Positions 59,119-62,639 of a stretch of DNA of 64,000 bases are shown in pieces. The stretch spans positions 1-64,000 of the forward strand of contig NZ_MWQI01000012.1 of the NCBI RefSeq assembly GCF_002210345.1, read 5' to 3'. A program made the translations under genes and the position numbers. Within the stretch, counting starts at the first letter, position 1; each line of letters opens with the position of its first letter. The notes beneath the pieces are model-generated. The model saw nothing but the letters and a program-made list of their open reading frames with translations, did not search any database and was not told the origin of the DNA. Source of the DNA: Fibrobacter sp. UWB4 (GTDB taxonomy: Bacteria > Fibrobacterota > Fibrobacteria > Fibrobacterales > Fibrobacteraceae).

Positions 59119-59137
59119 ATGCATTGAGGCACTGCTA

Positions 59138-60025
59138 ATGATATACACAACGAAGCCTTTCCGCCTTGCCGCATCCGCATTCTACCGGCTTGCATACAAG
59201 CTGCACCACAAGCTCTTTTTGCGGCCACAGCCGCCTATCCAGACTCCCGTCATCATCGTCGGGAGCTATTTAGCAGGTGGCGCAGGCAAAACGCCATTCA
59301 CCATCTGGCTTGCAAGGCATTTTTACAAACAAGGTAAGCGCATCGCAATCCTTTGCCACAGCGCCGCCTGGGACGAGTTCATCATGTTGCAGCAAGCATT
59401 CGAAAGCATCCAGTCACACTCCGCCGCATCACCGCAAATAAAAGTCTTTGCAACCAGGAACCGTTATTCCACCGCCAAGGAAATTCAGGACAAATTCGAC
59501 ATCATTCTCTGCGATGACGGTTTTGAAGACACGCGTTTTACAGGTGTGCGCCACATTTGCCTCGACTGGCAAGAACCGCCAACATCCTGGACATGCCTTA
59601 TGCCCGCAGGTCCGTTCCGCAGTCTCAGGCAGGACCATGACGAACGCGATATCATCCACCTCGCCTGCTACGGTAACACACCCGATATCCATTTTTCCAT
59701 CGAGTTTCTAACAAATTCAACAACTTATAAACAATTCACGGCGAAAATCATTTGCGGACTCGGTTCCCCCAACCGTTTCATTGAAGACATCCGCACATTT
59801 GCATCAACGGCAGGCATCCAAATAGCAGGATCCATTATCCGTCCCGATCACGACAGACGTTTTCCACAAATCGTTCAGGCAGAACTCTCGCAAGGCAACG
59901 ACATCATTATTTCACAGAAAGACGCGAGCCGTTTACCCCAGGCACTCCTTTCCCACCCAAAACTCCACGTTGCCATCCAAAAAACCGAAGTTTCAGACAA
60001 AATTCTACAGGAATTGTCCTTATAA
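59138..60025 (+). CDS. lpxK: tetraacyldisaccharide 4'-kinase
   Basis: 295 aa, somewhat shorter than the usual 325-350. Phosphorylates the 4' position of the lipid A disaccharide at the inner membrane. Motifs: VIIVGSYLAGGAGKTPFTIWLA (P-loop, about 37-58, GGAGKT in place of GGTGKT) and ILCDDGFEDTRF (LDDGFQ-type motif). The start is the ATG of MIYTTKPF, preceded by GAGG 8 bases upstream; an in-frame ATG at 59114 lies inside the hairpin repeat. Fits with lpxA in the same window. Confidence 0.9.
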   Translation: MIYTTKPFRLAASAFYRLAYKLHHKLFLRPQPPIQTPVIIVGSYLAGGAGKTPFTIWLARHFYKQGKRIAILCHSAAWDEFIMLQQAFESIQSHSAASPQIKVFATRNRYSTAKEIQDKFDIILCDDGFEDTRFTGVRHICLDWQEPPTSWTCLMPAGPFRSLRQDHDERDIIHLACYGNTPDIHFSIEFLTNSTTYKQFTAKIICGLGSPNRFIEDIRTFASTAGIQIAGSIIRPDHDRRFPQIVQAELSQGNDIIISQKDASRLPQALLSHPKLHVAIQKTEVSDKILQELSL

Positions 60026-60117: not shown

Positions 60118-61674
60118 ATGAATTTGCGTCAGCGTTTTGCCGAACTTCTTCAGATCATCACCAAGGACATTCCAGAAAGAGAATACTATGTACAGCTGGG
60201 TTTCCTCACCGCACTGATTCAGGAACCGTTCTACCTCTATGGCCGCCCAGGCTGTGGAAGTTCCCTCTTTATCCGCAGAATTTCAAGCGCATTCAAGGAC
60301 GCGAAGATTTTAAAGCTCGGCAAAAAGCAAAGACAGCTTCCCGACAACATCAACGACTTCAACCTGATTATCTTTGACAACTTCTCGCCCACCGATGAGC
60401 AGAGCAAGAATAACCTCCAGATCGTCATCCATGACCACGAGAAAAACTCCATCATCATTTCGGGCGACCAGAAGCCGGAATCCGCACTGAGCAGGTCCGA
60501 AGTAAGCGACCAGGTGACGCTTACGATCATGCTCCCCGACAGCATTTCTTCCGATGCGCTCTGCAAGTTACTCCAGCTCCACGGCACCGACAGCAACGTC
60601 ACCGTGCCCCCGTCAGTTGCCATTAGCGCCGAAGAACAGTCCGAATGGATTCAGGCCCTCAGCAAGGTGACACTTTCCCCGAACACGCTCGCCGTCATCG
60701 GCAAGGTCGCAGAGACCTGCGAAAAGAACTGCGTCTACGTGCCCATCCGCAGGTGGCTTGCCCTTTCGAACATGATCAAGGCCATCGCATTCCTCAACGG
60801 CCGCGCCGAGACAAAGCTTATCGACACGTTCTTCCTCGGAACATCCATCTGGGGGCGCAGCGCATCGAACACAGCCATTTCCGAAAGCTACAAGCAGATT
60901 CTCAAGGAGCAATTATACAAGAACACGCCGAGCCTCCTTGAAACGCCTTATGACGCAAACGGCCTGCTTATGCGCGTCAACCACCTCGTCCACAGTTCCA
61001 ACAACCTTTACGAAACCAAACCGTTCAACGGCGAAAAGTGCCTCGCCTACCGCATCACGATCGCAGGCGAATCCGTACCGCTTTACGCGCCGCTCAAGTA
61101 CATCGAAACCGACATTAACTTCAACCCGTACAACGAACTCCGCCAAGTTGAAAAGCGCGTCGTCTGCAACTATCACGGCACTTCAAACTGCACCATTTCT
61201 ATCGACCCGCAAGTCCGCACCAGCGGGCTGCGCAGTTCCGTCAACCAGTCCAATTCTACTTGCACCAAGTTCGAAGAATTCGGAACGCTCCCAACATACA
61301 TCCTGAGAGAGAACGCTCCTGAAATCATCGAAGAAAAGAAAGTCCTTCGCGATACACTTAGCGCTGAAATCAAGGAATCCATGGACCGCGAAACGGCAAA
61401 CCTCGTCGCATTGCGCAACACATATAAATTATTCAACGAATCAAAGGACGATCTTTTCTGCTTTACACAGATGTTCAACGCCGTCCAGAACGATATCAAG
61501 GCGCAGTTCGACAACACGGCAAATATCATCAAGACCATCAAGATGGCAAGTGAAGTCATCTCGTCTTTACCAAGCAACATGCTCAAGACCCCGAATCTGG
61601 TCGGCAAGCCGCAAAATAAGCCCCAGGCTCCACAAGCAACGCAAACCGCACAGTCCTCCAGTGCCGAAAAATAA
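60118..61674 (+). CDS. RavA/MoxR-like AAA+ protein with degenerate Walker motifs
   Basis: 518 aa. The N-terminal 150 residues follow the RavA/MoxR pattern: an arginine-rich helix, FYLYGRPGCGSSLFIRRISS at the P-loop and NLIIFDNFSPTDEQ at Walker B. The P-loop Lys is Ser (GRPGCGSS, residue 48) and the Walker B Glu is Asn (FDN, 87-88), so ATP hydrolysis is doubtful. The rest is a helical lid-like region, a beta-rich part (about 300-400), coiled coil (about 410-480) and a Gln/Ala/Pro-rich tail. Followed 14 bp later by a membrane protein gene; the two probably work together. Confidence 0.65.
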   Translation: MNLRQRFAELLQIITKDIPEREYYVQLGFLTALIQEPFYLYGRPGCGSSLFIRRISSAFKDAKILKLGKKQRQLPDNINDFNLIIFDNFSPTDEQSKNNLQIVIHDHEKNSIIISGDQKPESALSRSEVSDQVTLTIMLPDSISSDALCKLLQLHGTDSNVTVPPSVAISAEEQSEWIQALSKVTLSPNTLAVIGKVAETCEKNCVYVPIRRWLALSNMIKAIAFLNGRAETKLIDTFFLGTSIWGRSASNTAISESYKQILKEQLYKNTPSLLETPYDANGLLMRVNHLVHSSNNLYETKPFNGEKCLAYRITIAGESVPLYAPLKYIETDINFNPYNELRQVEKRVVCNYHGTSNCTISIDPQVRTSGLRSSVNQSNSTCTKFEEFGTLPTYILRENAPEIIEEKKVLRDTLSAEIKESMDRETANLVALRNTYKLFNESKDDLFCFTQMFNAVQNDIKAQFDNTANIIKTIKMASEVISSLPSNMLKTPNLVGKPQNKPQAPQATQTAQSSSAEK

Positions 61675-61688
61675 CGTATATTGAGGGC

Positions 61689-62639
61689 GTGAACTTAATT
61701 CTCCTCTGGGCGAGTATAGCCTTCATCTGGCTGATATGCATCTGCATGACCAAAAAAGGTCGTGCAGTTATTCGTATTCTCTGGAGGAGCATCAAGGTAA
61801 AGCTTGTTATCATTGCATGCGCTTTGGGCATTGCGGCAATCACGACCGCATACGCGACGCACCCCGAAGAAGAGCCGCGTCCCACCATCAACGAGCAGGC
61901 CGAATACCAAAAGTACACCACGTCCGCAATTCAAAAACTTTGCGATCGGGGCGAACTCATCATCGACATGAACTGCGATCTCGACAGCGCCGCCGCAGAA
62001 CTCGCCTACATCCTCCCCACAGTCATCAACAACTACAATCTCGTCGTCACGCGCCCCACAACGCCGATTCTCGAAAAAATCAAGGACACATTGCAGATAA
62101 AGATGATCGGCTACAAGAAATTCAGGAACAGGGGAATCCGCCTCACAAAAGCCCTACAGCGCGATCTCGGAATCCGCTACGATATCGAAATCATTTCCGA
62201 AGACACGGAGCACACGCTGAAAATCACATACAACGGAAAGCGCTGGGATAGTGAGCACCTCTGCAATCTCCCCATCCTTGAAGCATGCCTCCGTGAACGC
62301 ACGGACCCAGCAGTCCTCATGTCCATCATCCACCACACTTCCGGATTCCAGATGAACTACCAGGGCAAAAACAATACGTCTGGATTACTCGCGCTCAATA
62401 CAGGCAAAGGGTTAGAACAAATTGACATAGGCGCCCGCCGACTCAAAAGAATTCTCGCGACATCGCCCACGCTTGCCGATGCCATCGCACAGTTCTATCC
62501 CGATGCAGAACACCGCAACAGATTTGAGAACTGGCGCAAGGACCCGCAAAAGCATTACTGGGTCGGGCAAGTCCTCACAGACATTCAATATTACCGTAGC
62601 AACGGCATGACGCTCACCAAGCGCAAAAGAGTGGAATAA
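61689..62639 (+). CDS. membrane protein with degenerate lytic-transglycosylase-like domain
   Basis: 316 aa. Two membrane segments (about 3-20 and 38-56), then a periplasmic region. Residues 210-275 follow the soluble lytic transglycosylase layout: IIHHTSGFQ where the family has a catalytic Glu before SgF (here Thr217), then NTSGLLALNTG for the G-L-m-Q segment, and IDIGARRLKRILATSPTLAD for the repeated-helix part. The missing Glu suggests peptidoglycan binding rather than cutting. Start unsure: GTG at 61689 lies too close to GAGGG. Likely co-transcribed with the AAA+ gene. Confidence 0.6.
   Translation: MNLILLWASIAFIWLICICMTKKGRAVIRILWRSIKVKLVIIACALGIAAITTAYATHPEEEPRPTINEQAEYQKYTTSAIQKLCDRGELIIDMNCDLDSAAAELAYILPTVINNYNLVVTRPTTPILEKIKDTLQIKMIGYKKFRNRGIRLTKALQRDLGIRYDIEIISEDTEHTLKITYNGKRWDSEHLCNLPILEACLRERTDPAVLMSIIHHTSGFQMNYQGKNNTSGLLALNTGKGLEQIDIGARRLKRILATSPTLADAIAQFYPDAEHRNRFENWRKDPQKHYWVGQVLTDIQYYRSNGMTLTKRKRVE

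Follow-up and report, generated by a model that had tools for sequence, protein, structure and literature searches.

What can two neighboring genes still do when their products look like enzymes that have lost their catalytic residues, and do they do it together? RavA/MoxR proteins have been studied as ATP-driven chaperones, and lytic transglycosylases (LTs) depend on a catalytic Glu; in a 64,000-nucleotide stretch of DNA from a rumen Fibrobacter, Fibrobacter sp. UWB4 (hereafter the window), a RavA-like pseudo-AAA+ protein, P1 (60118..61674, + strand; 518 aa, ATG start, no transmembrane segment), is followed by a membrane-anchored pseudo-lytic-transglycosylase, P2 (61689..62639, + strand; 316 aa, GTG start). 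Rechecking of the open reading frames returned the coordinates of the initial annotation, with both genes on the + strand and separated by a gap of 14 bp. Upstream of P1 are aroC and lpxK (LpxK, tetraacyldisaccharide 4'-kinase; 59135..60025, + strand), the latter in an adjacency that is conserved genus-wide and serves here as context only; an ABC-F ATPase gene lies downstream of P2 on the opposite strand. Loci near-identical to the P1/P2 locus of the window come from F. succinogenes metagenome assemblies, and the window genome is of the Fibrobacter succinogenes type. A literature search returned no publication on Fibrobacter MoxR proteins and none that names the P1/P2 pair.

Distribution and Synteny of P1 and P2

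Among 111 genomes of the family, 84 carry both genes, 10 carry P1 alone, 1 carries P2 alone, and 16 carry neither, in keeping with long-term conservation; both or neither are thus found in 100/111 genomes, an agreement that partly reflects common ancestry. Genus g6, in which P2 is not detectable, accounts for 6 of the 10 P1-only genomes, including a single-contig genome. A search of the rest of the Fibrobacterota with the P1 profile yielded matches in a single genome, all of them partial and RavA-like, and a search with the P2 profile yielded none in the other families of the phylum; as far as such profile searches within the phylum reach, P1 and P2 were found only in the Fibrobacteraceae.

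The two genes are on the same strand in all 60 loci that contain both, and in 46 of these a GroES-like gene (PF00166) on the opposite strand lies between them. P2 is located away from P1 in 10 loci, with the GroES-like gene still beside P2 in 8 of the 10; P1 and P2 are unlinked in several complete genomes, and the upstream neighbors of P1 vary among genera. Because the window clade has no GroES-like gene here and the sole Cpn10 match in the window genome is elsewhere, the 14-bp spacing arose late (i.e., it is a derived state). In four window-clade loci, other genes (transposase-type or surface-protein genes) are inserted between P1 and P2. The short spacing, initially read as the sign of a conserved linked unit, does not stand as such, given the intervening GroES-like gene and these insertions, and a conserved two-gene P1-P2 operon is ruled out by the synteny.

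The same data bear on the possibility that P1 and P2 are functionally unrelated neighbors held together by synteny, with P2 belonging to the GroES-like region and P1 to the LpxK/chorismate synthase or ferrochelatase region. That the opposite-strand gene so often separates the two and stays with P2 where P1 is elsewhere, that the upstream neighbors of P1 change from genus to genus, and that genus g6 has P1 with P2 missing all favor such an explanation, whereas the invariably shared strand and the joint presence or absence across the family, the latter in part a matter of ancestry, speak against it; we consider it a serious possibility, somewhat short of an even chance.

Foreign genes have entered the P1-P2 gap in L064, L065, L066, and L067, namely a PD-(D/E)XK transposase-type gene, genes for PEGA/outer-membrane and PA14-type proteins, and ORFs of 1649 and 2214 aa. 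In most of the genus the GroES-like (Cpn10) protein, ∼127 aa long (L044:3200-3601, L045:3714-4097, L050:3449-3826, and others), is encoded divergently to P2; it is possibly a specialized co-chaperonin. In several other genera, its gene is adjoined by one for a 256-278-aa protein with no Pfam match (L050:3823-4593, L060:5742-6575, and 9 more loci).

P1 Is a RavA-Type Protein with a Degenerate Active Site

A P1 profile built from 34 orthologs matches E. coli RavA with E 2.4e-31, and the window protein carries the RavA lid domain AAA_lid_8 (60688..60882, + strand; Pfam PF17868, E 3.2e-9, above cut-off); the NCBIfam RavA model matches with E 1.2e-19 and 70.7 bits, far under its cut-off of 681. For an AlphaFold2 model of P1 (mean pLDDT 85.5), the top PDB match in Foldseek is RavA (E 2.2e-17, 541 alignment columns). 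The C-terminal part (61015..61563, + strand), compared with RavA in the same way, is modeled as a beta-rich domain (residues 300-397) and a long helical hairpin (residues 401-482). In our reading of the model, made by eye rather than by per-domain superposition, the order of elements would correspond to the core, lid, LARA, and triple-helical domains of RavA. The profile alignment has a gap at profile positions 77-112, opposite RavA residues 82-149 (the Walker B stretch), and P1 is missing ∼35 residues that RavA has in the segment linking the P-loop region to sensor 1. The resemblance to RavA/MoxR that had been noticed by eye is therefore upheld by the lid domain, the profile match, and the model match, and the predicted fold is of the RavA type rather than an unrelated one. 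A search for an active P1 paralog in the window genome found none. In some relatives there is a RavA/bpMoxR-like ATPase of the canonical kind, its Walker B motif reading DE; the window genome has none. At L073:2565-6065, such an ATPase is followed by a DnaJ plus vWA protein.

P1 thus has the sequence and fold that mark RavA-type members of the RavA/MoxR family (AAA+ core, AAA_lid_8, C-terminal LARA/helical part); of the catalytic residues that mark the family, the window protein lacks the Walker A Lys, and it also lacks the combination of Walker B Asp-Glu, sensor 1 Asn, and arginine finger. Both changes that had been pointed out in its motifs are present: a degenerate P-loop, GRPGCGSS (residues 42-49; 60241..60264, + strand), with Ser48 in place of Lys, and a degenerate Walker B motif, IIFDNF (residues 84-89; 60367..60384, + strand), with Asp87 followed by Asn88 in place of Glu. 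Their histories differ. Over 92 distinct orthologs, the Walker A Lys position holds Lys in 73, Ser/Thr in 18, and Arg in 1; Ser/Thr is confined to the F. succinogenes clade, and the Arg is the one further loss elsewhere. The Walker B Glu is found in only 1/92 orthologs, the sensor 1 Asn in 2/92, and the arginine finger in 11/92, so the catalytic loss is real in both motifs but is family-wide for the Walker B Glu and limited to one clade plus the single Arg case for the Lys. When the P-loop columns are left out of the P1 tree, two changes are needed to account for the absence of the Lys, consistent with one in the F. succinogenes clade and a second in L044. With sensor 1, the arginine finger, and the Walker B Glu mostly gone across the family, the Lys-to-Ser change appears as the last step: the P1 family was probably already incapable of ATP hydrolysis before the Lys was lost, and, judging from the ortholog sequences, the Ser is a late change in one clade and not a defining feature of P1. 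The loss of the Lys coincides with that of the GroES-like gene in the F. succinogenes clade; being a single event, the coincidence is weak evidence for a link between them.

In RavA, one subunit contributes A51, K52, S53, and D114 to ADP binding, and its neighbor contributes R170 (arginine finger) and R251 (sensor 2) (PMC6987120). Since the P-loop is kept in most P1 relatives, nucleotide binding may persist there, and it could be argued that P1 still uses nucleotide, as an ATP switch in the Lys-bearing relatives and through Lys-independent binding in the window clade. The P-loop glycines (G42, G45, and G47 are invariant in the 34-row alignment), the prevalence of the Lys itself, the sensor 2 Arg in 59/92 orthologs, and a Walker B Asp position that in the window clade, unlike in most relatives, is still acidic (Asp or Glu) fit this possibility, which we nonetheless find rather doubtful, with sensor 1, the arginine finger, and the Walker B Glu gone and a Ser/Thr directly after the P-loop Lys position in only 48/92 orthologs.

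P2 Is a Membrane-Anchored SLT-like Protein without the Catalytic Glu

P2 begins with two transmembrane helices (residues 2-20 and 35-57; 61692..61859, + strand), seen as hydrophobic segments with 19-residue Kyte-Doolittle means of up to 2.51 (near residues 3-21) and ∼2.07 (near residues 34-58), that flank a basic, presumably cytoplasmic loop (TKKGRAVIRILWRSIK). The loop has 6 Lys/Arg in 16 residues, which by the positive-inside rule places it in the cytoplasm; judged by hydropathy and charge, the large domain of P2 is probably periplasmic. It consists of a conserved alpha/beta domain (residues 69-186; 61893..62246, + strand) and an SLT-like domain (residues 188-305; 62250..62603, + strand).

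The kinship to SLT domains emerged from structural comparison of the model and from profile-profile alignment. The window P2 sequence, scanned alone, matched nothing in Pfam or NCBIfam, Pfam SLT included; weak SLT matches appear in 3 of 25 family members (best E 0.017), and searching PDB sequences with the P2 profile gave chance-level matches only. The AlphaFold2 model (mean pLDDT 86.5), when submitted to Foldseek, best matches MltC (5.3e-4), followed by g-type lysozymes, Slt, and MltE, with modest TM-scores; histidine-kinase matches were dismissed as look-alikes sharing a helical hairpin. Set against a profile made from 32 Fibrobacterota SLT domains, the P2 profile reaches a score of 38.4 (E 3.5e-5); as controls, 100 column shuffles gave at most 18.7, and the reversed profile gave 13.3. 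The phylum search with the P2 profile also finds, in genome G002, an ordinary SLT protein whose Glu is intact (E 1.8e-4), and hhalign aligns P2 with this active-type Fibrobacteraceae SLT at a probability of 94.9% (E 4.2e-8). The window genome itself encodes three true SLT proteins. By both fold and sequence, then, P2 belongs with the SLT family, and the two membrane segments and transglycosylase-like layout first proposed from the sequence agree with hydropathy, the hhalign result, and a predicted structure that is SLT-related (MltC best) rather than unrelated.

The catalytic residue of that family is missing. P2 has Thr217 (62337-62339), in the motif HHTSGF, where LTs have Glu, and hhalign places it opposite the catalytic Glu of RQES in the G002 protein. 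As the initial annotation had it, the Thr replaces the Glu, and the loss extends to the whole set of 77 distinct orthologs (T 28, V 27, I 14, A 2, gap 6; Glu 0). The motif I segment of the SLT part is wholly absent from the most distant P2 orthologs, and most of the invariant residues (E104, R148, Y164, Y181, W186) are in the alpha/beta domain; with G183 counted, six such residues lie in or beside it. Both observations would be expected if P2 acted mainly through its alpha/beta domain, with the SLT-like part a vestigial support, but the SLT part is on average as conserved as the alpha/beta part (0.60 versus 0.57), and we think this explanation unlikely.

P1 and P2 Are Maintained by Selection

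Within the window clade, pairwise dN/dS is 0.05-0.15 for P1 and for P2; both genes are under purifying selection. That they are decaying genes or products of sequencing error, as the missing catalytic residues taken alone might suggest, is refuted by the same states, in intact frames, in many independent genomes (Ser/Thr in 18/92 P1 orthologs, Glu in 0/77 P2 orthologs) and by these dN/dS values; the initial annotation had named nearby orthologs with normal catalytic residues as the mark of an error, and the counts speak against such an error. Synonymous divergence between the window genome and that of L064 is 0.53 in P2 but 0.09 in P1 (60118-61671 against L064:2734-4275), a difference suggestive of a recent recombination event at P1.

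Discussion

P1 and P2 are real, conserved pseudoenzymes in shared synteny and are variants of two known kinds. With catalytic residues gone and both genes nevertheless conserved family-wide, they are probably a scaffold and an anchor, not enzymes. The reading we prefer, to which we assign an even chance, is that P1 is a cytoplasmic oligomeric scaffold and P2 an inner-membrane protein that binds glycan without cutting it or regulates LTs, the two having evolved separately as pseudoenzymes. P1 would be a full-length RavA-type protein that lost hydrolysis early and kept its P-loop in most relatives, the F. succinogenes clade then losing the P-loop Lys as well, and it would most likely work as a nucleotide-independent scaffold or adaptor that presumably forms oligomers in the cytoplasm. 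P2 would be held in the inner membrane by its two helices, in the predicted topology, and would display first the alpha/beta domain and then the SLT domain, probably in the periplasm; the latter should still accommodate a glycan strand or an LT partner with no cutting, and P2 would most likely position or regulate cell-wall enzymes. Contact between P1 and P2 would be possible only via the conserved basic cytoplasmic loop of P2, and cooperation between them is a plausible hypothesis. The proposal of a scaffold or sensor tied to the cell wall is thus a fair inference for P2, with its membrane anchor, SLT fold, and probable periplasmic location, and does not carry over to P1. A stronger version, in which a fully ATP-independent RavA-type ring is coupled through the P2 loop to a glycan-sensing or glycan-holding pseudo-transglycosylase (i.e., a transmembrane scaffold of two dead enzymes, found in the Fibrobacteraceae only), seems to us quite improbable.

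Compared with RavA (E. coli regulatory ATPase variant A; MoxR family, Pfam AAA_lid_8), P1 shares the whole-length architecture and sequence similarity but lacks the Walker B Glu, sensor 1, and the arginine finger, has a gap of ∼35 residues, and in the window clade is also without the P-loop Lys. Another difference is that no linked gene for the ViaA partner or another vWA protein was seen beside P1, none recurring among the genes scanned there; in the window genome, VWA_CoxE gives a single match, under threshold. E. coli RavA is located at the inner membrane and binds phospholipid (PMC9489729), and a membrane-linked scaffold role of P1 would fit that location, as an analogy and not as evidence. 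P2 shares its SLT fold and motif order with MltC and the SLT-family LTs (GH23, Pfam SLT), and in MltC, as in P2, an alpha/beta domain precedes the SLT domain; P2 differs in having Thr/Val/Ile/Ala for Glu, GLLAL for GLMQ, and FYPD for YNAG, and in having an inner-membrane hairpin rather than a lipoprotein anchor. Two further proteins are functional parallels only. Caulobacter DipM has an inactive LytM domain that regulates active autolysins, soluble LTs included (PMC10336132); its fold is LytM rather than SLT, and kinship is not claimed. SpmX of Caulobacter/Asticcacaulis combines a muramidase-type domain with a two-pass membrane domain and serves as a positioning factor (PMC4460556), whereas in P2 the order of domains is reversed and the domain is SLT, not muramidase.

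The P1 family, in which hydrolysis was lost first and the P-loop Lys later in one clade, offers a natural series for the RavA scaffold without ATP. P2, whose membrane-bound SLT domain is conserved but has no catalytic Glu, is a possible LT counterpart to the inactive LytM regulators, in a phylum about whose cell-wall biology little is known.
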